From assembly GCA_022605425.2 (NCBI GenBank), contig CM061247.1, positions 1,413,501 through 1,477,500 on the forward strand: a stretch of DNA of 64,000 nucleotides, read 5' to 3'. Position numbers and translations under genes: made by a program. Origin of the DNA: Hamiltosporidium tvaerminnensis (Eukaryota; Microsporidia; Dubosqiidae). The notes beneath the pieces were generated by a model that was given only the letters and a program-made list of their open reading frames with translations, was not told the DNA's origin and ran no database searches. Positions 3,537 to 64,000 of the stretch are shown in pieces. Numbering within the stretch: the first letter of the stretch is position 1; each line of letters opens with the position of its first letter.

Positions 3537-5657
3537 ATGAAAATAATTCAATTACCTCAAGAAATTATTTCAAGAATATCTGCTGGTGAAGTAATAATAA
3601 GACCATACAACATAATAAAAGAAACTTTAGAAAATTCATTGGATTCTGGATGTAAAAATATAAAAATAAATATTTCTTGTAATATATTAGATGAGATAGT
3701 AATAAGTGACGATGGGTGTGGAATTAATCAAGGTGATTTTAATTTACTATGTGAGCGACACTGTACGAGCAAGATATCAGATTTAGAAGATTTGTTTAAT
3801 TTGAGTAGTTTTGGATTTCGAGGTGAAGCACTTGCTTCTATAAGTCTCGTTTCTGATGTAAGTGTACTTTCTAAACGAAAAGAATACGAATTGGGATTTT
3901 TCTGTGAGTATGAAAATACCAAATTAAAAAGTATTAAACGAAGTGCCTCAGAAAACGGCACAAAATTTTTTATAAAAAATATATTTAAAAATAATAGAAT
4001 TAGAAAAGAATATTTTTGTAAAAGAAACGAAGAAATTAGAGATATTTATGATTTAGTGGTGAGGTACAGTATTTTCTATTACAGAATATCTTTTACCTTA
4101 AATATTGATAATAAAAATAAAAACGCATTTTACAGTTCAAATGGATACAAAGACGAATATAACCATGAATCTTTGGTTAATAAAGATACAGACGAATATA
4201 ATCTTGAATCTTTGGTTGATAAAGATAAATACGAATATAATATTGAAGGATCAGTTGATAAAGATAAATACGAATATAATCTTGAAGCATCAGTTGATAA
4301 AGATAATGAAAATGAAATTAAAAGAAAAATGTTAATCGATAATTACAAATTAAATGAAAATTTAAAATTTTTGGAATCAGAAAAATTCAAAATATTTTTT
4401 TCTTTACCGTTTGTAAATTATAAAAAATATATTTTTATTTTATTTATAAATGGAAGATTGGTAGATCAAAAAAATATTAAATCTGCTATTTTATCTGTGT
4501 ATAAGCCTTATTTGCCTAAAAATACGTTTCCATTCATTTATATAGAAATATTTTTAGAAAAAAATATTTTGGATGTAAATGTACATCCGTGTAAAAAAGA
4601 AGTTTTATTTTTGGATGAAGAAAAATTTATAAAAGAGATTTGTAAAGAAATAAATTTTAAAATAAAAAACGAAGAAATTTGTTTCAAAAAAGAAAATGAA
4701 AATAAAAAAAATAATTTTGGAGAAATTAAGGAATATTTAAATTATAATGAAAATAGAAATGATTCTTCTAAGATTTATACTGATCCTTTGAGTTTAAGTT
4801 TGGATGAAATTGTTTTGGAAGGTGGAAATGAAACAAGTAAAATATATAAATTAGAAAGTTTAAAAAAATTAAAAAATGAAATTGAAGAGATAAATACGGG
4901 ATTCTTTAAAAATTTAGTGTTTGTAGGTGTCATGGATAATCGGGTTTTAATTCAATACACTTCATTCCTATTGCTTTGTTCTTTTACAGAACTGGTAGAA
5001 GAATTTTTATATCAGAGAATTATTTATGAATTTGGCAATTTTGAAGAAATTCAAAATATTGAAATATTTCTTAATTTCACTGATTTTGAATCGACTGGAA
5101 TCTGTAATTTTAATGGTAAAGGTGAAGAAAATAATAATTTTAACGATGCAAACATGAAATCTACCAAAACTTTAAATTTAAATATGGAAAATAGCAATTC
5201 AAATCATAAAAAAATTAAATTTCTAAAATCTTCTGACCAAGTCGATTCAAACTTAAGTTCTAAAAAAGAATATAATTCATTAAAAAATAAGGAAGAAAAC
5301 ATCTATAAAAATATAAATATTTCAAATCAAATGATTGGACTTCTTGAAGAATATTTTTCAATAAAAATTTACAAAAATAAAATAATTACTGTTCCTAAAC
5401 TTTTATGTCCAATTACAGATACAAAAGTGTGGAATTCAATAATTAATAGAATTGCTAATTTAGAAATGGTTAATGAATTTGAATGTTTAAAAGAAATTAT
5501 TAAAATTGTCAGTGAAGAAATTTCTCAGTGTATTTTACCAAAAAAAATAGTTTTTAATGAAATAAAACGAAAAATAATTGGAACTAAAAAATCATTAAAA
5601 ACCTTCAAAGTAATTACTCAGTTATCAGAACTCTACAAACAATTTGAAAGATGTTAA
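3537..5657 (+). CDS. MLH1: DNA mismatch repair protein MLH1
   Basis: A 706-residue MutL-family ATPase. The N-terminal GHKL motifs are clear: ISAGEVIIRP (14-23), ETLENSLDSG (29-38), DDGCGI (58-63) and FGFRGEALASIS from residue 92. The C-terminus ends exactly in FERC, the conserved tail of eukaryotic MLH1 that reaches into the PMS1/PMS2 endonuclease site. This separates it from PMS1 and MLH3. It should dimerise with a PMS-type partner and act after MutS homologues in the nucleus. Oddity: residues 206-257 are four tandem copies of a 13-residue, 39-nt unit (consensus near DEYNLESLVDKDK), inserted within the N-terminal transducer half; this expansion has kept frame. The start is the first ATG, preceded by a CCC motif. 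Length is close to human MLH1 (756). Confidence 0.95.
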   Translation: MKIIQLPQEIISRISAGEVIIRPYNIIKETLENSLDSGCKNIKINISCNILDEIVISDDGCGINQGDFNLLCERHCTSKISDLEDLFNLSSFGFRGEALASISLVSDVSVLSKRKEYELGFFCEYENTKLKSIKRSASENGTKFFIKNIFKNNRIRKEYFCKRNEEIRDIYDLVVRYSIFYYRISFTLNIDNKNKNAFYSSNGYKDEYNHESLVNKDTDEYNLESLVDKDKYEYNIEGSVDKDKYEYNLEASVDKDNENEIKRKMLIDNYKLNENLKFLESEKFKIFFSLPFVNYKKYIFILFINGRLVDQKNIKSAILSVYKPYLPKNTFPFIYIEIFLEKNILDVNVHPCKKEVLFLDEEKFIKEICKEINFKIKNEEICFKKENENKKNNFGEIKEYLNYNENRNDSSKIYTDPLSLSLDEIVLEGGNETSKIYKLESLKKLKNEIEEINTGFFKNLVFVGVMDNRVLIQYTSFLLLCSFTELVEEFLYQRIIYEFGNFEEIQNIEIFLNFTDFESTGICNFNGKGEENNNFNDANMKSTKTLNLNMENSNSNHKKIKFLKSSDQVDSNLSSKKEYNSLKNKEENIYKNINISNQMIGLLEEYFSIKIYKNKIITVPKLLCPITDTKVWNSIINRIANLEMVNEFECLKEIIKIVSEEISQCILPKKIVFNEIKRKIIGTKKSLKTFKVITQLSELYKQFERC
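4152..4307 (+). repeat. In-frame 39-bp tandem repeat inside MLH1
   Basis: Four consecutive 39-bp units, each starting GACGAATATAA or TACGAATATAA, encode four 13-residue repeats. The units differ by several substitutions, so the array is not brand new. Confidence 0.9.
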
Positions 5658-5998
5658 TTAAAGTAATTTTAAGAATTTTTAATTTTGATAATTTCTATTT
5701 TCTTTGCAATAAAATAATTTATTTTAAAATTTACAAGTAAATCATTTCTTTGTCATTTTTATAAGACCATTTCTATGTTCTTTATAAAAAAGTAAGTAAT
5801 TTTTGTTTCAAATTTTTTATAGAAAAGTTTATTTACAATTTCTAAATAAAAAATTATCGTTTTTTAATTTGACAATCGAATAATTTTTCATTTTCATGCC
5901 TCGATTTAAATGTTAAATAATAAATTTATTTATTTTTTTTCATTAAAAATTTTACTCTTTAAATACAATATTCATGTTCTTTGCACTAAAAAAAGATA

Positions 5999-33364: not shown

Positions 33365-33645
33365 ATATTTTATTTAATAAAATTCTAAGTTAAAATATTT
33401 TTACTATTTTTATATGTTTTCTTTCTACCTCTTTAACCAATACTGTCTCTAGAAATAAAAGTATAAAAATAAAATTCTAAGTTAAAATATTTTTACTATT
33501 TTTATATGTTTTCTTTCTACCTCTTTAACCAATACTGTCTCTAGAAATAAAAGTATAAAAATAAAATTCTAAGTTAAAATATTTTTACTATTTTTATATG
33601 TTTTCTTTCTACCTCTTTAACCACTACTGTCTCTTTTTCCAAATC
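33365..33645 (-). mobile_element. Triplicated 3' end of the non-LTR element
   Basis: Three 92-bp units (33377, 33469, 33561) each match the terminal ORF codons and 3' UTR of the non-LTR element (plus strand: ATAAAATTCTAAGTT ... CTACCTCTTTAACCA-TACTGTCTCT). The last unit extends furthest into the ORF (TTTCCAAATCCGAC). The units are joined by AGAAATAAAAGTATAAAA. Confidence 0.85.
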
Positions 33646-50800: not shown

Positions 50801-52747
50801 ATGAAAATGGTTTATTTACACAAAAACAAATCAATAAAAACATATCTTAAAAAACCAATAAACATCCTAATATTCATTACATTCTTCATCTACACATACA
50901 TCGTAAAACTTATACAAAATATCCTCAAATTTATAAACTCCCATCCAATTATTTACATATATCTTCTCAAATTTACACTCACAATCCTCAAATTTACATT
51001 CCTAAAACAAAACATAAATCTAAAATTAAAATATTATGAAATAGAACAATTCTATGAACATATATTACCAATAAAATACATACTATCATACAACCTAAAG
51101 AACAAAACATACACATTATCAAATATATTTCCATCTTTTCTATTTCTTCTATTATTTATTAATTATTTATATTCCTCTTTTGAATACAAATTTATCTGTA
51201 ATTTATATTTCATATTTGAAATATTCTTTGAAAATGAATATATCGATTATAAACCTGAATATATTTATATAAAAGATATTCTTTTATATTTTTTACGAGA
51301 TATTATGATAACAGAAGATATTTCTTCAGAAGTAAAATTTATATTCCAATATCTGTTTATATTTTTCATATTTTTGTGGTCATTTACAATGATTAATTTT
51401 AAACATAAAAATTTAATACTCAGAATAAGAAACCATATATATATTTTATCTAAGCCTTTCTATAATAGTATGGATTTTTCAAATAGAATTTCCTCAATAA
51501 GAAATAATTTATACATTTTCTCAAACCTATTCAATAATATAAGATATTTAAATCTGTTAAATAGAATTTCCTCAATAAGAAATAATTTATACATTTTCTC
51601 AAACCTATTCAATAATATAAGATATTTAAATCTGTTAAATAGAATTTCCTCAATAAGAAATAATTTATACATTTTCTCAAACCTATTCAATAATATAAGA
51701 TATTTAAATCTGTTAAATATAATTTCCTCAATAAGAAATAATTTATACATTTTCTCAAACCTATTCAATAATATAAGATATTTAAATTTTTCAACCAAAC
51801 TATACAACCACACATCCATAATTATATCTCATTACTCAAAACACTTTTTAAATATAAAATTCTTTTTAGAATTTTTACCAATTTTAATAATTAATTTAGA
51901 TAATATATTACTAAATATAGAAATAAATAAATTTGAAAAAAAAATAATTCTTCAAAATATAATTGTATCTTCTCAAATACAAAATATATTTAATATTTTA
52001 AACACTATAACACATTTTATACCAAAAGAATACCAACAAGTATTTAGAAAGTATATTTCATATTATTTTATTTACATTTCATTTATTCTTCAATATTTTA
52101 GTAATTTAGAACCTAACACAATACTTACAGATATAAAAAGTAGCAAAGGTAATAATATGATAGATAGTAATACTAATAGTAATAGAGATAGTAATAGTAA
52201 TAGAGATAGTAATAGTAATAGAGATAGTAATATGTTTGATAGTATTACTAATAGCACTAATAGCACTAATAATAGTATTACTACTAATAACAGTAATACC
52301 AATAAACTTACTACTAATAACAGTATTACTAATAATATTACTACCAATATCAGTATTACTAATAACAGTAATATCAGTATTACTTATAATATATCTACAT
52401 ATCTAAGAATTAATAACAATTCTATTATTAATTACTTTTACAACTTTTTATTTCATTCAATTTTATTTAATTTAGATAATATATATTATACACAAGGTAT
52501 AATATATGAATATACTACAAAATCATTTAATAATATTATGATTTCTAAAATAATATATTTAATGAATAGAATAGTTATAAAAGATAATTATTTATTAATT
52601 TATATATTAAGTATATATTTTATATATGTAAGTATTAATATATATTTATATTTATTTATATTCATTTTATCTTTAATAATCGTTTTTTTTATTGAAATAT
52701 TTTTACATTCAAACAGTCTTTTAGAAAATGTAAAAGAAATGATATAA
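50801..52747 (+). CDS. Repeat-containing hydrophobic protein, 648 aa
   Basis: Not recognised. The frame is open for 648 codons in very AT-rich DNA and starts next to a CCC motif, so I treat it as a gene. Composition is dominated by Ile, Asn, Leu, Phe, Tyr and Ser. Hydrophobic segments near residues 24-45, 48-70, 108-128, 183-203 and a long C-terminal block (about 600-640) suggest a multi-span membrane protein. Residues 228-331 are four nearly identical 26-residue repeats (unit NRISSIRNNLYIFSNLFNNI plus RYLNLL). Residues about 445-530 are Asn/Ser/Thr/Asp low complexity (SNRDSN repeats, then ITTNNS repeats). IMP3 lies convergently downstream. It could be a divergent membrane-trafficking or peroxin-like protein, but nothing visible supports a specific family. 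Confidence 0.55.
   Translation: MKMVYLHKNKSIKTYLKKPINILIFITFFIYTYIVKLIQNILKFINSHPIIYIYLLKFTLTILKFTFLKQNINLKLKYYEIEQFYEHILPIKYILSYNLKNKTYTLSNIFPSFLFLLLFINYLYSSFEYKFICNLYFIFEIFFENEYIDYKPEYIYIKDILLYFLRDIMITEDISSEVKFIFQYLFIFFIFLWSFTMINFKHKNLILRIRNHIYILSKPFYNSMDFSNRISSIRNNLYIFSNLFNNIRYLNLLNRISSIRNNLYIFSNLFNNIRYLNLLNRISSIRNNLYIFSNLFNNIRYLNLLNIISSIRNNLYIFSNLFNNIRYLNFSTKLYNHTSIIISHYSKHFLNIKFFLEFLPILIINLDNILLNIEINKFEKKIILQNIIVSSQIQNIFNILNTITHFIPKEYQQVFRKYISYYFIYISFILQYFSNLEPNTILTDIKSSKGNNMIDSNTNSNRDSNSNRDSNSNRDSNMFDSITNSTNSTNNSITTNNSNTNKLTTNNSITNNITTNISITNNSNISITYNISTYLRINNNSIINYFYNFLFHSILFNLDNIYYTQGIIYEYTTKSFNNIMISKIIYLMNRIVIKDNYLLIYILSIYFIYVSINIYLYLFIFILSLIIVFFIEIFLHSNSLLENVKEMI
51482..51793 (+). 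repeat. 78-bp tandem repeat, four copies, in frame
   Basis: AATAGAATTTCCTCAATAAG recurs at 51482, 51560, 51638 and (one base changed) 51716. Near identity between copies implies recent expansion or homogenisation. Confidence 0.95.
52135..52390 (+). repeat. Asn/Ser/Thr low-complexity coding repeat
   Basis: AATAGAGATAGTAATAGT-type units come first, then ATTACTAATAACAGT-type units. The second set is partly complementary to the first, the same purine-first order as the VPS13 islands but without the GGGTGTTA core. Confidence 0.75.
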
Positions 52748-53632: not shown

Positions 53633-53730
53633 TTTTTTTTCTTTTTGGGTGAAAAAAATGGATTTTATATTTAAAAAAGTCGTTTTTTCTTTATTAACAG
53701 TAAAAAAGAACAGAAATAAAGGGTTATAGT

Positions 53731-53850
53731 ATTTAAGGGGTGTTAACTTATAGTGTTGTTATTTAAGGGGTGTTATCCTATAGTGTTGTTATTTAAGGGG
53801 TGTTATCTTATAGTGTTGTTATTTAAGGGGTGTTATCTTATAGTGTTCTT
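53731..53850 (+). repeat. 30-bp tandem repeat with GGGGTGTTA core, four copies
   Basis: ATTTAAGGGGTGTTA plus TCTTATAGTGTTGTT repeats four times with few changes. It is the G-strand block of the intergenic island. Confidence 0.95.
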
Positions 53851-53869
53851 ATTAAAGTATGTTAATTAT

Positions 53870-54250
53870 CAGTAGTATTACTAACACCCTTAACGTTACT
53901 ATTATTATTACTAACACCCTTAACGTTACTATTATTATTACTAACACCCTATAGTCTACTACTCTTATCACCCTTTTAACTACTACTTTCTATCCTTATA
54001 ACTAACACCCTTATAGCCTCACTCCTTATAACTAAAACCCTTATAACATCTATCCTTATAACTAACACCCTTTATCACCTCACTCCTTATAACTAACACC
54101 CTTATAACCTCTATCCTTTTAACTAACACAAATCTAACTAACACCCTCCTCAACCAATATACTCCTCTATCACCTCACTCCTTATAATATAACACCCCCT
54201 CTCCCCATACCCTACTCTACCATTCCCCCTATAATATAACACCCCCATAC
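53870..54250 (+). repeat. TAACACCC-rich block, noncoding
   Basis: Degenerate units near ACTAACACCCTTATAACCTC repeat to about 54250. Most contain TAACACCC or AACACCC, the reverse complement of the core of the preceding block. It forms the 5' flank of VPS13. Confidence 0.9.
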
Positions 54251-54339
54251 TCCTCACTCTACAAATCACCTTTAAAACATTTGTTTTATTCCTTTATACT
54301 TAAAACCCACCCAAAAAAACCCATACAAAATAAAAAAAA

Positions 54340-57300
54340 ATGTTCAAAAGTATAGCAACAGCACTTCTAAACAGAATATTAGGAAATTACATAGAAAATT
54401 TAAACAGAAAGCAATTAAAAATAGGTATTTGGAACGGTAAAGTAGAAATGTCAAACATTATATTAAAACTACCACCTACTCTTTCCTCTACATATTTTAC
54501 ACTAATTAAAGGTACAATACAATCCCTTTCACTTACCATTCCCTGGTCAAATATTTCTAAAAATTTTTCTTTTCTTGAAATTACCAACATACAAATTACA
54601 TTGTTAACAGGTATTACAGATCCTTATAAAATTAAGAAATATATTATTGAAGCATTAACCGAGAAGATAATCAAGAGTATAAGTGAGGGTATAAGTGAGG
54701 GTATAAGTGAGGGTAGTAGATATGATAATAATAATAGAGGTACTAGTAGTAGAGATACTAACAATAATAACAGAATAGATACTAACAGTAATAACAGAAT
54801 AGATACTAACAGTAATAACAGAATAGATACTAACAATACCTTTATTACTAGAATTGTTGCTAAAATATTAAATAATTTACAAATTATTATTAAAGAAATA
54901 GAAATACGTGTTATTACACTAGAAGGACATATTTTTAAGTTTAAAATAGATTTAATTAAAATGAAAAGTTGTAATTCAAAGTGGGATATGATAGAGGGTG
55001 TTAGTGATAGGGATATGATGGAGGGTATAAGGGGTGTTAGTGATAGAGGTAGTGGAGTAGAGGGTGTTAGTGATAGTACTAATGAACAACACCCTGTTAA
55101 TAATAGTATTAATGAACAACACCCTGTTAATAATAGTATCAATGAACAACACCCTGTTAATAATAGTACTAATGAACAACACCCTGTTAGTGATAGTATT
55201 AATGAACAACACCCTGTTAGTGATAGTACCAGTCAACACCCTGTTAATAATGACACTAATACACAACACCCTGTTAATAATAGTACTAATGAACATCACC
55301 CTATAAATAACAATACTACTCATCACCCTGTTAATAATAGTACTAATGAACATCACCCTGTTAATAATAGTATCAATGAACAACACCCTGTTAATAATAG
55401 TATCAATGAACAACACCCTATAAATAACAATACTACTCATCACCCTATAAATAACAATACTACTCATCACCCTGTTAATAACAATACTACTCATCACCCT
55501 GTTAATAACAATACTACTCATCACCCTGTTAATAACAATACTACTCATCACCCTATAAATAACAATACTTTTAAAATAATACATGTTAAAGGATTCTCTA
55601 TAAATATAAATAATTACCTTTTATTTGATTTAGAAATAATAACAATAAAATGTACAATAAATAATAAAAACCTTTTATTTAAAACAGATATAGAAATACC
55701 AAATATAAATACAGAATTAACAATAGATTCTTATAAAAAGGTTATTGAATTTATACATACGATTTTAGTTGAAAAAAATAAAAATGAAAATTTAATGATT
55801 AAAAGTATTAACAGTAAGATTTTAGAAATAGAAGAGTTTATAAGGAAAGGGGGTGTTAATGATAAGAGTAGTGTAATAGGGGGTGTTAATGATAAGAGTA
55901 GTGTGATAGGGGGTGTTAATTATAAGGATAGTGTAATAGAGGGTGTTAATGATAGTACTAATGAACAACACCCTTTATATATAAGTACAGATGTACAACA
56001 CCCTTTATATATAAGTACTAATGAACAACACCCTGTTAACAATAAGACTAATGAACAACACCCTGTTAACAATGTATATAATACACAACACCCTGTTAAC
56101 AATCAGACTAACGAACAACACCCTGTTATCAATGTATATAATACACAACACCACGTTAATAACAACACTAATGAACAACACCCTGTTAACAATCAGACTA
56201 ATGAACAACACCCTGTTAACACCACTACCCCTAATATAACTCTTAACACTACCCCTAATATAAATACCCACATATGGAATTTAATTTATCAAATATATTT
56301 TGAAAAATACAAAATAAATACATTTGATAGAAATGACACTTTAAATATTTTAAAAGAAAATGAGAAGTATTGTGACCTTTACAGAAAGAAAATAAATAAA
56401 AAAATAAAAAAAGAAGAAGAAATAGAATTAAATGAATTTGAAAATAAAAATTTAATAAAAAAAATTATTAATTTACGAAATGAAGTTCTTCATGAAAAAA
56501 CACCTAAAAAAAGCTTCTTTTCATATTTTTGGAACAAAAAAATCAGTAAAGAAGATAAAAAAGAAATTTACAAAGTAATAGAATATACAGACAGCAAAGG
56601 TTAGTATAGTTGGAGAAGTGGATAGTAAAGATAGTAAAGGTAGTGTAAATGCTTTAAGTAATGTAGATAGTGGATAGGAAAGATACTGTAAATACTTTAG
56701 ATACGAATACTAATAACAATAATCTTACTCTTCCTACTTCTCCTTACTTAGACTCTGACTCTTTAGAATATGTAGATGCCTTAGAACCAAGTGATGAGAC
56801 ATATAAGAAACTAACAAGAGAAGTAGATAATAAAGAAAATGGTAGTAGAGAAATAGATAGTAAAGAAATAGATAATAAAGAAGTAGGTAGAAGAGAAGTA
56901 GGTAGTAGAGAAATAGGTAGTAGAGAAAAAGATAGTAAACAATCAATATCTAAAAAATACGTTTGTAATTTTTTAGTTAAAAATTTTAATTTTAATTTCA
57001 AGGTAAATGAAAATATTAAATATTCTATTTCTATAGAAAATTTAGAATCTTTTATAAGTAAAGAAGGAAGAAGTATTGATTTATCTTTAAGTGTTTATAA
57101 TTTTAATATATTTTATAAGAAATATGATAAGACATATAAAATATTAAGGAATAAGAGGGGAGTAGAGGGTAGTACTAGTAAGGAAGAGGGTGTTAGTGAT
57201 AGAGGTAGTAAGGAAGAGGGTGTTAGTGAATAGGGGTAGTAAGGAAGAGGGTGTTAGTAATAGAGGTAGTAAGGAAGAGGGTGTTAGTTATAGTACTAGT

Positions 57301-60300
57301 AAACAAAGGGGTGTTAGTAACAGTACTAGATAAACAAAAGGGTGTTAGTAACAGTACTAGTAAACAAAAGGGTGTTAGTAATACTAACAACAATACTACT
57401 AACTTTTGTAATGTTATTTATATTAAGGAGAAGAATACTTTAAATATTTTTATAAATGAAATGAAAATATTGAATTTTAAAAAAATATTTCTTTTATTTG
57501 ATAAATTAAAAAATAATAAAATAAATGAAATAATAAGACTTTTAAGTATAAAGGATATTTTAGAGGGTGATAGTGGAGGGGGTGTTAATAATAGTGGGGA
57601 TAGGGGTGTTAATGATAGGGATAGTAAACAACAGGGTGTTAATAAGAGTAGTATGTATTTTGGGGGTGTTAATGATAAGGATAGTAAACAACAGGGTGTT
57701 AATAAGAGTAGTAAAGAAGAGGGTGTTAATGATAAGGGTAGTAAAATAGAGGGTGTTAATGATAAGGGTAGTAAGGAAGGGGGTGTTAATAATAAGGATA
57801 GTAAACAACAGGGTGTTAATGATAAGGATAGTAAGCAAGAGGGTGTTAACGGTAGTACCAATAATTATCACCCTCTTAATAACAATACTAATAATTATCA
57901 CCCTCTTAATAACAATACTACACAATCAACACCCCTTTAATAATAACCTCACTATAGTCTTAAATATTAGAAAACCTAAAATATCAATTTCTAAATACGT
58001 GTTAAGAGAAATGGGTTTTATATTAATAAATCAAAGTATAAATATTAAATGTAAAGAAATAATACTTAATAGTGTTATTTGTATGAAGAATAAGTTTAAT
58101 TTACAAGTAAAAGATTTAGAAATATTTATATTTAAAAATAGAATTAAAGAGTATATTGTTAATAAGATACCTATAGAAATAACAGGTAGTATAGTAGATA
58201 GTGTTATAGGTTGTTATGATATAGGAAAGGGGGAGGGTAGTGGAGTAGAGGGTGTTAATGATAAAGGTAGTGTATTAGAGGGTGTTAAGGATACAGGTAG
58301 TATGGAAGGGGGTGTTAGTGATAGAGGTAGTAAACAACAGGGTGTTAGTGATAGTAGTGTATTAGAGGGGGTTAATGATAGTACTAGTAAACAAGAGGGT
58401 TTTAACTATACTACTGACCAGCAACACCCCTTTAACAATACTACTAACCAGCAACACCCCTTTAACAACCTACCTAATCAACAACACCCCTTTAGTAATA
58501 CTACTCTTTCTGTTCTACACTTAGACTCTTGTATTGATAAATTACGTATTAAGATACCTAAAGACCTTTTATTTATAAGAAGTAGTAATATAAAGGGTGT
58601 TAATAACAATACAGGTAACTTACACCCTGTTAATAACAATACCACATATTACCCTGTTAATAACAACACATACAATCAACACCCTGTTAATAACAACACT
58701 GATATACAACACCCCTTTAGTAACAACACTGATATACAACACCCCTTTAGTAACAATACTGATATACAACACCCTGTTAACAACAACACATACAATCAAC
58801 ACCCTGTTAACAACAACACATACAATCAACACCCTGTTAATAACAATACCACACAACACCCTCTTAATAACACTAGACTTACCTTTAACTTATCTATAAA
58901 CAATCTTATATTAGATTTACCTTTTATTTCTTATAAATTAAAAGGTAAAGAAATAACATTAGTTAGTGATTTAAATGTAGAAATATTTACTTTTAATTTT
59001 AATATAAAAGGTAATAAATTAAAAGGGTGTTATAGAAGAGATAAGTGGACAAAAAATATTTTTTATAATTTTAATGATTTTAGATTTAAAGGTAATGAAT
59101 ATGTTGTTAAGTTAAAGAAGGAAATAGAAGAGATGCTTATGTTTATAAAGGGTGGTAGAGATAATAGTGTGTTAGGGGGTGTTAATGATAAGAGTAGGAT
59201 AGAGGGTGTTAATAATAAGGATAGGATAGAGGATGTTAATGATAAGGATACTGAACAACACCCTGTTAACTATACTACTGATAAACAACACCCCTTTAGT
59301 AACAGTAGTAATCAGCAACACCCTGTTAATTATACTATTGATAAACAACACCCTGTTAATTATACTACTGATAAACAACACCCCTTTAGTAACAGTAGTA
59401 ATCAGCAACACCCTGTTAATTATACTATTGATAAACAACACCCTGTTAACTATACTACTCATAAACAACACCCTGTTAATTATACTACTGATAAACAACA
59501 CCCTGTTAACAATACTACTGATAAACAACACCCTGTTAACAACACCCTTTTATTTACTAACCTACGTCTTAATATAATAACACCTCTTATTTCCATACTA
59601 ATAAAAGTAAAAGAAATTAAAAACAAAAATATAAAGAAAATATTAATAAAGACAAATAACACCCTGTTAAATATAAGTAAAATATCACTTATAAATAACA
59701 CCATAACTAATATACGTATTATTAAAGATGAAAGTACAGATAAAGATATATTTTATATTTTACAATTCTTAAAAGAATTAGAAATAATACCTTTTACTTC
59801 TAACAGTTCAGAAGAAGAAGTATTTATTATAAGAAATGTTAAAATTATTTCTTATTTCTCTCTTTCTTTATATTCTAAGGTTATATTTAAAAGTAAAAAT
59901 ATTTATATTTTATTTAAAAAGGATTCATTAAGAATAGAGATACCTATATCAATAGGTGTTAGTGATAGTGAATTAGAGGGTTTTAGTGATAGTAGTAGGT
60001 TAGAGGGTGTTAATGATAGTGGAATAGAGGGTGTTATTGATAGGTAGTAGGTTAGAGGGTGTTAACCTAAGTAACTATAATTATAAGGGTGTTAACATAA
60101 GTACTAATAAACAACACCCCTATAACACTAACAATACTACTTATCACCCCTTTAACACTAATAATACTACACAACACCCCTATAACACTAACAATACTAC
60201 ACAACACCCCTTTAACACTACTATTAATACTTTAAATGTCTCTCTTGTTATTTTAAAAGATACTAATGGTTTAATAATAACACCTGTTATTACTGGTAGT

Positions 60301-63300
60301 ATAGATAATGAGTTTTATCGTATTTTAACAAGAAATATATTAGAAATTATAGAAATAACACTTAATATTATAGATTGTTTACTTATTAAAAGTAAAGAAA
60401 CTACTTTTAATTTTAATATTTTACCTTTAGTATGTGTTAGGTTATATTGTATTATTGGTAATAGTGTAATAGAGTTAGGGGTGTTAGATAGTAGTATAGA
60501 GATAAAGGGTGTTAGTGGTAATAGTTTTATAAAGGAAGAAGGGGGTGTTAATGATACAGGAGTGGATAAGGATAGGGGTAATGGATTAGAGGGTGTTAAG
60601 GATAAGGATATGTAAGAGGGTGTTAAGGATAAGGATAGAATATAAGGGGTGTTAATGATAAGGGTAGTAATATAAAGGGTGTTAGGGATAAGAGTACTAA
60701 TATAAAGGGTGTTAGGGATAAGAGTAATAAAGATAGTTATAAGGGTAGTAATAAGGGTAGTTATAAAAGTAACAAGGAATTACTAGATGCCTTATTAAAG
60801 GGTATTAATAACAATACTAACAACTATAATAATAACACTACTAATAACACTTCTAATACTACCCCTTTAGATGTTATTTCTACTGATTTTATATATCAAC
60901 AGTTTATAGAGAATTACCCTTTAATAGATATATTAACACCCTTTCTTTTACTTACAATTAATATTAAAGAAATAAGTCTTAAGCCTATAAAATATTACTG
61001 TAATATAAAGGGTGTTAGTGACTATAAGGATATAAAGGGTGTTAATGATAAGAGTAATATATTAGAGAATATAAAGGGTGTTAATGATAAGGATAATATA
61101 TTAGAGAATCTAAAGGGTGTTAATGATAAGGATATAGAAGAGGGTTTAAATTATAAGGATATAAGAGGTGTTAGTGATAAGTATAATCAAGAAGAGGGTG
61201 TTAGTGATAGGGATATAGATGAGGGTGTTAATGACAAGAGTAATGATTATAAGGATAATCAAGAAGAGGGTGTTAGTGATAAGGATAATCAAGAAGAGGG
61301 TGTTAGTGATAGGGATATAGATGAGGGTGTTAATGACAAGAGTAATGATTATAAGGATAATCAAGAAGAGGGTGTTAGTGATAGGGATATAGATGAGGGT
61401 GTTAATTATAAGAGTAATGATTATAAGTATAATCGAGAAGAGGGTGTTAATGATAGGGATATAAAGGGTGTTAATTATAAGAGTAATGACTATAAGTATA
61501 ATCGAGAAGAGGGTGTTAATGATAAGGACATAAAGGGTGTTAATTATAAGAGTAATGAACATAACCCCTTTATTCTTATTACTAATTCTACTATTATTAT
61601 ACTTAAAGGTACTTTAGGTATTAACACCCATATATCTATAAGAAATATAAATACTTTACAATCACTTACAATACTTCTTCTTATAAAACAATCATTTATA
61701 ACACCTGATTTTTCATATGGTATACCTACATTATTAACACCTTTTAATATATATCTTAAAATATATAATATAGAGTATACAACAGTAGAATACGATAGTG
61801 TAGTAAAGGGTGTTAATGTAGAGGGTGTTAGGGATAGTGGTATGGTAGAGGGCGTTAGCGATAGTACATATAATTATAACACTGTTAGCGACAGTACTAA
61901 CACACAACACCCCTTTAACAACACTACTAACACACAACACCCCTTTAACAACAGTGCTAACACACAACACCCCTTTAACAACAGTGCTAATACACAACAC
62001 CCCTTTAACAACAGTGATACTAAACAAGACCCCTTTAACAACACTAATACACAACACCCCTTTAACAACAGTACTAATACCCCCACTACCAATATTAACA
62101 CCCCCACTACCCCCACTAACACCCCCACTACCCCCACTAACACCCCCACTACCAACACTAACACCCTCATTCTCTCTAATCTCACGTTAACACCCACTGG
62201 CTTACAACTATTTATTACTAAAATAACACCATTCTATTACACTAACACCCCTTTAAGACTTAAAGTATCCTTTATTATAAATCCCCAGTCAGTAACAACA
62301 AGAATAACAATAAGTGATTGTAATATAAAATTAAAAATAAAAAATATAAATGAAATACAATCTCTTATAAATTACACCTTAAAAGAAATAAAGAAATATA
62401 CCTTTTATTCTATAGAAAATAGAATATCAATAATATCTTTAATATTATTTGATAATACAATAATTATATGTAAGAATAACGGGTCTTATTTTATAAAAGT
62501 ATTATTAAATTTTATATCAATAACAATAGAAAATGAAATTATTTGTAAGTGTGTTATAGGGGTGTTATATTATGATAATTATTTATTAGATTATTACCCT
62601 TTAATTGATCAATTTAGTATAAATATAAGTGTTATTAATGAAATTATAAGTGTTAATAGTAAAGAAGTAATAAGAGGTGTTATTAGTGATGGGTTGTTAA
62701 GGGAAATAAGGTATTTTAATAGTTTAGGTGTTAAGAATATACTTTATAATTATAGTTGTAGTGATATGGTTATAAGGACAATAAGTAAGATATTAAAGGT
62801 AGTAGGTAATAGTAGGGGTGTTAGTAATAGGGATAGTAGGGATATGGTAGAGGGTGTTAGTAACAATAGGGATAGTAAAGAGGGTGTTAGTAATGGGGAT
62901 ATGGTAGATAGTAAACAACAGGGTGTTAATATAAGTACTAGTGAACAACAGGGTGTTAATATTAGTACTAGTGAACAACAGGGTGTTAGTAATGGGGATA
63001 TGGTAGATGGTAAACAACAGGGTGTTAATGACAGTACTAATCCTTTACACCCCGTTAATGACAGTACTAGTAAACAACAGGGTGTTAATATAAGTAGTAA
63101 TACTACCAATGAACAACACCCCCTTAGTAACACTACTAACAATAACACCCCCACTAACACCTGTTACTTTACTGATAATATAGCTACTCTTACTATTAAC
63201 AATACTGTTTTATATTTACCTTTAAATAAGGAAGGTACAAATTTATATACATTTAACACCTCTTTACTTGCTATAGAAATAACACTATCAGAATTAAAAA

Positions 63301-64000
63301 GAAAAATAAATATTTATAACCCTGTTATTATAAAGAATATGACAGAATTTAAAATAACAGTAGGATTATCAAATAATTATAATGATATATTAACACCCTT
63401 TAGTAATAGTACTATAATAACACCCTTTAATGATAGTTCTTTATTATTAAAAGGGTGTTATTTATTATTACAACCTTTTGGTTATAAACAAGGTAATAAA
63501 GGTGTTAATATTAGTAATATAAATAACACCCCTACTTCTATATATTTTACTTGTAATGATTATAGAGCTATGCATATGGTGTTAATAGTAGATGTTATAC
63601 AATATAAGTGTAGTGATAGTAATATAGGGTTTAGTATAGGGAGTGGTGATAGTAGTATGGGATTAGGTATAGGGAGTGGTGTTAGTAGTATGGGTGGTAA
63701 TAACACCCCTTTAAATAACAGTAGTGGTAATAACACCCCTTTAAATAACAGTACTGTCAATACCCCTTTAAATAACAGTAGTGGTAATAACACCCCTTTA
63801 AATAACATTAGTGGTAATACCCCTTTAAATAACAGTAGTGGTAACACCCCTTTAAACAAGAGTAGTATCAATACCCCTTTAACCACACACTCTAACAATA
63901 CCCTTTTCTATATCCTTATTTACCCTCTTTATTACCTTTATAACTCTACTCCTTACCCTTTAACTTTCTCTATAATTAACACCTCTCTTAACTGTTGTAC
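54340..64000 (+). CDS. VPS13: VPS13 (chorein), N-terminal part, partial at window end, frame changes present
   Basis: The N-terminus is a chorein domain: LLNRILGNYIENLNRKQLKI (residues 9-28), WNGKVEMSNIILKLP, then IQSLSLTIPWSNI, all typical of VPS13. VPS13 is a bridge-like lipid transfer protein at organelle contacts. Coding runs 54340-56604 (frame 1), about 56604-56677 (frame 2), 56670-57233 (frame 0), about 57234-57332 (frame 1), about 57333-57940 (frame 2), about 57930-60047 (frame 0), about 60031-60615 (frame 1), then about 60648 to 64000 (frame 0), open to the window end for more than 1,100 codons. Frames are given as start coordinate mod 3. Between islands the sequence is ordinary VPS13-like beta/hydrophobic pattern (for example FLVKNFNFNFKVNENIKYS). 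Thirteen or so low-complexity islands interrupt it (EGVND-type then QHPVNN-type peptides). The frame changes lie in or beside low-complexity repeat. Pseudogene, assembly error or unusual decoding are all possible. Confidence 0.8.
54975..63900 (+). repeat. Polarised GGGTGTTA / TAACACCC islands inside VPS13
   Basis: Approximate islands, G block then C block: 54990-55560, 55845-56250, 57165-57930, 58235-58510, 58590-58880, 59155-59550, 59950-60215, 60470-60960, 61010-61640, 61805-62180, 62810-63150, 63490-63540, 63655-63900. G blocks encode peptides such as EGVNDKDS and KQQGVND; C blocks encode QHPVNNNT, QHPFNN or NTPLNN. In 55081-55560 I count 17 CACCCT in 480 bp. Each island can pair with itself because the C block is largely the reverse complement of the G block. 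Confidence 0.9.

Follow-up and report, generated by a model that had tools for sequence, protein, structure and literature searches.

The window analysed here, a stretch of 64,000 bp from the microsporidian Hamiltosporidium tvaerminnensis (GenBank assembly GCA_022605425.2, contig CM061247.1, positions 1,413,501 to 1,477,500), has a GC content of 26.5 percent and ends in a VPS13-like gene which, together with its 5' flank, is interrupted by islands of short repeated words. The assignment to VPS13, proposed in the initial annotation, was confirmed by the match of the frame from position 54340 to the Pfam family VPS13_N (E value 8.4e-24). The islands are minisatellites with a step of about 30 bp and two arms, in which G-words (GGGTGTT) stand on the left and the complementary C-words (AACACCC) on the right. 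About 13 coding islands were counted by eye, as before. The features of the region are:

53731..54250, no strand assigned: noncoding island 5' of VPS13, four exact G-words followed by nine exact C-words, with a G-arm at 53731-53857 (four 30-bp units) and stops in all six frames
53877-54250, no strand assigned: C-arm of the noncoding island, holding the nine exact C-words and almost free of G
54340..64000, plus strand: VPS13-like gene with the VPS13_N match, continuing past the window end and split by frame changes in this assembly
54990..55569, plus strand: coding island, three G-words followed by nine C-words
55845..56221, plus strand: coding island, four G-words followed by eight C-words
57155..57383, plus strand: coding island whose exact words, at 57188-57376, are seven G-words only; the frame changes inside it
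57575..57943, plus strand: coding island, ten G-words followed by one exact C-word and ATCACCC variants
58236..58505, plus strand: coding island, four G-words followed by three C-words
58595..58872, plus strand: coding island, one G-word followed by seven C-words
59145..59552, plus strand: coding island, two G-words followed by eleven C-words
59955..60220, plus strand: coding island, four G-words followed by three C-words, with a frame change near 60042
60461..60735, plus strand: coding array whose exact words, at 60479-60713, are eight G-words only
61000..61558, plus strand: coding array of 15 G-words
61805..62250, plus strand: coding island, two G-words followed by C-words in a QHP frame and an NTP frame
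62800..63152, plus strand: coding island, eight G-words followed by two C-words
63391..63460, plus strand: small reversed cluster of three words (C-C-G), the only one in the VPS13 region
63613..63882, plus strand: G-rich stretch followed by NNTPLNN C-words, as read from the sequence

A single C-word at 61623, 3' of the array at 61000..61558, lies in flanking sequence shared with the isolate protein P0154. The initial annotation had reported a G-block followed by a C-block in every island and no reversed island. The first statement holds for most islands, including the noncoding one, and, in terms of exact words, fails for the two G-only arrays at 57188-57376 and 60479-60713; the second is nearly right, the exception being the cluster at 63391-63460. 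The VPS13 frame changes at window positions 56604, 57233, 57940, 60041-60047, and 60612-60648, several of them inside repeat arrays. At 60041/60043, both the H. magnivora protein P0107 and the isolate protein P0154 read through unbroken, and P0154 also does so from 60636 to 60648; the frame changes may be repeat assembly errors or may be real in this isolate. An Rfam scan of the window returned no matches.

H. tvaerminnensis is a parasite of Daphnia, and its assembly comprises 21,638,905 bases (21.64 Mb) in 17 contigs, of which the window and about 0.29 Mb of sampled loci (L001-L029 and others) were examined as sequence, and the whole genome was surveyed by pattern counts. The word GGGTGTTA occurs 3175 and 3003 times on the two strands, against 132 and 143 times for the reversed control word, that is, 6178 hits compared with 275, an excess over chance. 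The window holds 76 copies of GGGTGTTA and 28 of its complement TAACACCC, 75 and 26 of which lie within 53700-63900, in agreement with the high density of both words noted there initially.

Neighbouring words are mostly 27-39 bp apart with a mode of 30, in coding and noncoding DNA alike. Across the switch from one arm to the other, the distance between GGG and CCC was 30 bp in 19 of the 31 switches shorter than 80 bp (window and L001-L025) and 60 bp in three more; in a larger set of switches of at most 65 bp, this triplet spacing was 29-32 bp in 16 of 21 non-open and 19 of 29 open cases. The junction at the centre is usually a two-fold symmetric element (dyad) of about 32-33 bp, GGGTGTT-N18/19-AACACCC. 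The letters between the words are biased in the same mirrored manner: G-arms contain 4-5 percent C and 22-25 percent G, and C-arms contain 3-8 percent G and 20-23 percent C. Where no frame is open, the base compositions of the arm interiors complement each other almost exactly (G-arm A43 C4 G22 T30, C-arm A30 C23 G3 T44 percent). The two arms also share the register of about 30 bp and the reading frame (EGVND / QQGVNN / QHPVNN), which corrects the earlier view that the two blocks encode unrelated peptides. In addition, AACAGGGTGTT is the exact reverse complement of AACACCCTGTT; QQGV and QHPV units are thus related by inversion of the spacer in a short inverted repeat.

The order of the two arms was scored in islands defined by symmetric clustering with triplet gaps of at most 65 bp, at least three words, and both kinds present. 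Among 33 such mixed islands in the window and the sampled loci, 31 were G-first, the exceptions being a lone C-word before the G-array in L024 and the three-word cluster in the window. Every one of the 17 islands interrupted by stops in all six frames was G-first at this threshold; some of them are frame-shifted coding arrays (window 60005), and others are apparently intergenic, judged by open frames only (window 53738 and parts of L027, L028, and L029). Loci L021-L025 had been chosen by plus-strand G-words and L026-L029 for a G-C junction, which introduces a bias in the latter; without L026-L029, 16 of 18 islands were G-first. At the peptide level, the G-arm came first in 29 of the 30 mixed islands seen in translations of the DNA read here, and in 165 of 171 mixed islands in database proteins (four ties, two reversed), a redundant set found with G-first queries. 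Seven small loci picked by their junction had 26 of 27 further words on the expected side (left 20/20, right 6/7).

Genome-wide counts, which are independent of the choice of loci, led to the same result, and the block order that the initial annotation had proposed to score is not random. At spacers of 4-28, G-C word pairs were found at 131 places and C-G pairs at 45, and at spacers of 35-65 the numbers were 240 and 46; T-prefixed 8-mers at spacers of 4-34 gave 51 and 15. These are counts of word pairs, in which one island may appear repeatedly, and the 131 G-C places are a pattern count and were not each inspected by their letters. The 45 C-G places were taken from a total of 51 over a wider range of spacers (44 of the 50 places listed, plus the 51st), and nine of the 45 belong to one satellite on C17. 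This satellite (G000:C17:727297-728024) is a local repeat of about 86 bp; its nine C-then-G pairs form the largest cluster in reversed order that was found. A raw count of 239 G-C places (spacer 4-34) was replaced by the count at spacers of 4-28, because one 43-bp piece (spacer 29) recurs at about 20 of the 50 places listed. This GGGTGTT...AACACCC piece, which inflates the raw junction counts, lies in a repeated open reading frame (ORF) with RSEMHEEP (L004 629-1198; L022 9142-9645, minus strand; for example, G000:C1:131149-131191), and we would guess that this ORF probably comes from a transposable element. Since the reverse complement of G-then-C is again G-then-C, gene direction does not affect the order; the polarity is the same on both strands and extends to DNA outside genes. 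The initial proposal of a DNA-level cause, with the same polarity in noncoding DNA and local expansion, is supported.

In the VPS13 region, which was delimited by homology and not by an open frame, 100 of the 110 steps of at most 65 bp are multiples of three. In segments with stops in six frames, the corresponding figures were 36 of 88 G-G and 48 of 82 C-C steps, with the mode still at 30, compared with 148 of 158 and 135 of 149 in stop-free segments; the comparison of open with non-open segments is partly circular, in that the open class favours in-frame spacing, and the VPS13 region was used in its place. The step of about 30 bp thus looks like a property of the DNA that is filtered for frame in genes.

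Codon usage was counted in 113 frames with 45,456 amino acids. Before GV, GAG prevailed over GAA (75 vs 8), AAG over AAA (47 vs 6), and CAG over CAA (45 vs 0), whereas elsewhere in the same frames the A-ending codons prevail (GAA 2110 vs 564, AAA 3028 vs 910, CAA 804 vs 191). Likewise, His before Pro was encoded by CAC in 113 cases and never by CAT, in contrast to 521 CAT and 201 CAC elsewhere. The word is thus retained at the DNA level at sites to which the protein would be indifferent. By contrast, the base preceding AACACCC is T in 214 of 230 words outside frames, and a T at this place would make TAA in the QHP frame. It is C in 48 of 65 C-words of the VPS13 region versus none of nine in the adjoining noncoding island, where all nine have T; in the wider set, C precedes 96 of 182 C-words within frames versus 12 of 230 outside. 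The 85 of 85 occurrences of C before AACACCC in the xAA phase of stop-free frames are not main evidence, as T is excluded there by construction.

These observations bear on two further readings. Selection for a repeated disordered linker (EGVND units and then QHPVNN units) would agree with inserts that are in frame, hydrophilic, and located in conserved proteins, and with a helicase whose islands lie between stretches matching SLH1 and ASCC3. We nevertheless disfavour it as highly improbable: polarity, period, and composition are the same where all six frames have stops, the synonymous sites are strongly biased towards the DNA word, and the two frames of the C-word (QHP, NTP) give different peptides. 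The bypass of islands or their removal from the messenger RNA, as of a spliceosomal intron, was suggested in the initial annotation and is not supported; the sequence speaks against it indirectly, through the in-frame steps of VPS13, the C in place of the stop-making T in 48 of 65 C-words, and the other isolate and H. magnivora, which read through islands where the window changes frame. At the level of sequence, this suggests arrays that originate and are maintained as DNA but undergo translation. In the available part of a 2009 study, in-frame inserts of 15-57 amino acids in conserved proteins of Octosporea bayeri (= H. tvaerminnensis) were kept in mRNA according to reverse transcription PCR, and none was removed (PMC2784321); these inserts may or may not belong to the island family.

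The arrays vary between isolates and species. In VPS13 of H. magnivora, islands occupy the same places in four aligned pieces. In the VPS13 alignment with two H. magnivora proteins, the flanks showed 757 identical and 24 substituted residues with four gap columns, compared with 828 identical, 81 substituted, and 123 gap columns in the islands; 18 of the 24 flank substitutions fall in the piece 56739-57236, which has a repetitive stretch free of the word. The number and kind of units also vary among isolates of H. tvaerminnensis, in VPS13 and in the helicase. Islands thus turn over fast between isolates, and the flanks are almost unchanged. A protein query made of islands only gave 33 matches from 203 candidates, all named Hamiltosporidium, and the VPS13 query gave at least 59 matches among 8000 candidates, 58 of them named Hamiltosporidium; such a search reaches only relatives sharing short exact words and does not prove absence elsewhere. 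Both kinds of peptide motif were counted in 15 named carriers, including the RNA polymerase beta subunit, Rpb1, an AAA ATPase, Sec7, TFIID subunit 2, and USP7, and further poly(A) polymerase, CPSF1, INO80, a ubiquitin-activating enzyme, and Prp8 domain proteins (Prp8 by database name). The helicase of L022, which resembles SLH1/ASCC3/BRR2, is an intact frame of 1637 amino acids containing two islands of the word and a third, degenerate one.

This turnover is relevant to the proposal that the islands are dyad-symmetric binding arrays, in which a dimeric protein would recognise GGGTGTTA on both sides of the centre in steps of about 30 bp (about three helical turns) and the words would be selected for chromosome organisation or replication. 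The conservation of the word at synonymous sites despite variable interiors, the mode of 30 in coding and noncoding DNA, and the dyad symmetry are all in its favour. We consider it unlikely on balance, as copy number and word content differ at the same site between isolates and species, unlike a fixed platform, and many arrays are one-armed.

Folding was considered as a cause of the order, as the initial annotation had predicted a foldback hairpin for each island. Ten window islands, each compared with 40 shuffles, gave z values from 0.3 to -3.9, with four at or below -3.1, six at or below -2.2, and two at 0.0 and 0.3. Exchanging the two blocks changed the folding energy by no more than 5.4 kcal/mol; a reversed island would fold equally, and folding therefore cannot select the order. 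A general switch of GC skew was rejected as well. In a random sample, G-C and C-G switches numbered 55:61, 21:15, 16:14, and 9:11 at scales of 60, 100, 150, and 200 bp. The island-rich window leans towards G-C (27:18, 17:7, 19:6, and 14:6), and the targeted loci do so at short scale (55:38, 45:23, 40:38, and 32:36).

Interstitial telomeric repeats and head-to-head fusions have a G-rich then C-rich order, and this layout is shared by our islands. It could result from break-centred repair, in which both 3' ends of a double-strand break would gain G-rich repeats by a telomerase-like or polymerase-theta-like activity and be joined head to head. The orientation, (G-rich)n-(C-rich)n, is that of such a fusion, and both arms are poor in C when read on the strand that points its 3' end at the centre. 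Exact CCCTAACCCT units occur in a second family of coding repeats in the same genes, which would also suit this scenario. The word itself differs from the TTAGGG repeat of the species: at one chromosome end (C3), 1 kb consists of TTAGGG repeat with 145 CCCTAA and no AACACCC, and an origin of the word as a telomere variant is accordingly not supported. Units that differ between islands leave no single RNA template, and some islands have several switches; we give break-centred repair little credence. The second family contains telomere-like AACCCTAACCCT units followed by AATAAATGCATAAAC (NPNPTLTLNKCIN and INNLSRDKCINN peptides) and was located as follows:

L022, amino acids 405-480 and 890-975: second coding repeat family
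L004, amino acids 320-700: second coding repeat family
L024, frame 4146-5660: second coding repeat family

Another possibility, raised in the initial annotation as a mobile foldback seed, is a mobile palindromic element, similar to a Rickettsia palindromic element (RPE) or a miniature inverted-repeat transposable element (MITE), that would insert the dyad at many sites where arrays grow later. The 6178 dispersed words and the island sites in VPS13 common to both species would fit such an element. Constant outer ends, which a MITE or DNA transposon would have as terminal inverted repeats beside a target-site duplication, were not noticed by eye in the islands inspected, and the interiors of the junctions differ. 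Sharing between unlinked islands is weak, with 16 of 22413 30-mers in common versus 160 of 39948 28-mers in the background, the latter probably due to transposable elements. This origin appears improbable, slightly more so than break-centred repair.

With somewhat better than even confidence, we interpret the islands as bipartite minisatellites seeded by a dyad, with expansion arm by arm and filtering for frame inside genes. The founding seed would be GGGTGTT-N18/19-AACACCC, from which units of about 30 bp stack outward, with GGGTGTT to the left and AACACCC to the right. Each arm would grow and turn over on its own, through replication slippage or unequal exchange, and some units would flip GGG/CCC in place through template switching between the AACA...TGTT arms. 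If the left arm mostly copies G-units and the right arm C-units, such arm-wise copying would keep the order on both strands, in coding and noncoding DNA alike. In genes, selection would act only as a filter that admits unit lengths in multiples of three and no in-frame stop.

Several observations weigh against this model. The order is less strict under looser clustering, with 34 of 39 islands G-first at 100 bp (four reversed, one tie), 34 of 38 at 150 bp (three reversed, one tie), and 20 of 25 at 100 bp without the junction-picked L026-L029; most of the clear noncoding mixed islands also come from loci chosen by their G-C junction. One-armed islands are common (13 G-only and 10 C-only among 62 clusters of at least three words), and interleaved G-C-G-C arrays are present in L025, L027, and L029. 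A founding dyad without arms was not found among seven small candidate loci, all of which had further G-words on the left. In the islands inspected in full, the units of one arm do not mirror those of the other in their interiors, and therefore no recent inverted duplication is visible. Finally, the step of about 30 bp is constant across islands with different interiors, for which slippage alone is insufficient.

A bolder interpretation, which we offer only tentatively, is that the islands represent an undescribed class, in which a palindromic centre of about 32 bp would act as a genome-wide site of nucleation or breakage and drive amplification outward in 30-bp steps. The amplified units, G-rich toward the centre, would extend through genic and intergenic DNA alike and supply essential proteins with translated linkers.

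The islands imply that a strong, strand-symmetric mutational polarity acts on many genes of one genus, including those for RNA polymerase subunits, a Sec7 protein, and Prp8 (database name), and that essential proteins carry fast-changing inserts shaped by a DNA-level process. The same arrays separate a drive at the DNA level (word, register, mirror composition) from a filter at the protein level (reading frame), and they provide a natural test system for the birth, strand change, and spread of coding minisatellites. According to the available part of the 2009 study, the majority of the proteins in this microsporidian exceed in length those of relatives with small genomes (PMC2784321), and the islands may be one reason for this. 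Two further features of the window should be mentioned. An MLH1-like mismatch repair gene is located at 3537-5657, and the state of mismatch repair could have a bearing on repeat instability. The GGGTGTTA word is absent from two other tandem repeats, of 78 and 92 bp (99 percent matches), at 51481-51787 and 33376-33634.

When compared to known systems, the islands resemble minisatellites (variable number tandem repeats), which have tandem units of about 10-100 bp and vary in copy number at a locus; the units here are mostly 27-39 bp with a mode of 30, and their number varies. A minisatellite keeps a single strand orientation, in contrast to the G-arm and C-arm joined at the dyad here, although 23 of the 62 clusters hold one kind of word. 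The strand switch within the array therefore makes the islands a variant of the minisatellite. The megasatellites of Candida glabrata are tandem in-frame units of more than about 135 nt, variable in number and common to unrelated genes. Like these and like coding minisatellites, our islands are tandem in-frame units of variable number in ORFs; unlike the megasatellites, they have units of about 30 bp, occur in housekeeping genes and intergenic DNA, switch strand at a dyad, and have a strongly preferred order. RPEs measure about 100-150 bp, are conserved over their length, and are translated within ORFs. The islands are likewise palindromic, located in ORFs, and probably translated, whereas only their words and spacing are conserved, the interiors differ, and the arrays are local.

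In-frame inserts in this species were thus already published in 2009, and those of O. bayeri likewise lie in conserved proteins, whereas no word, register, or polarity is described in the part of that paper available (PMC2784321). The islands are not described in the accessible portions of PMC12449221, PMC4202319, PMC2784321, and PMC10542269 either. Their shared word, register, and polarity were not found in the literature searched on Hamiltosporidium/O. bayeri, microsporidian minisatellites, the word itself, megasatellites, RPEs, and template switching, a search that does not establish absence in print. The inversion of the spacer of an inverted repeat by template switching is a published mechanism, as far as the sections consulted describe it (PMC8604942). 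The pair AACA-GGG-TGTT / AACA-CCC-TGTT is likewise an inverted repeat with a flipped spacer, whereas here it occurs in tandem arrays with a genome-wide order, and the flips are inferred, none having been observed as an event. Perfect inverted repeats of up to 284 bp are reported inside protein genes of nematomorph mitochondria, in the part of that paper available (PMC6649704). The islands of Hamiltosporidium similarly place inverted repeats in protein genes, and differ in that only short words are mirrored.

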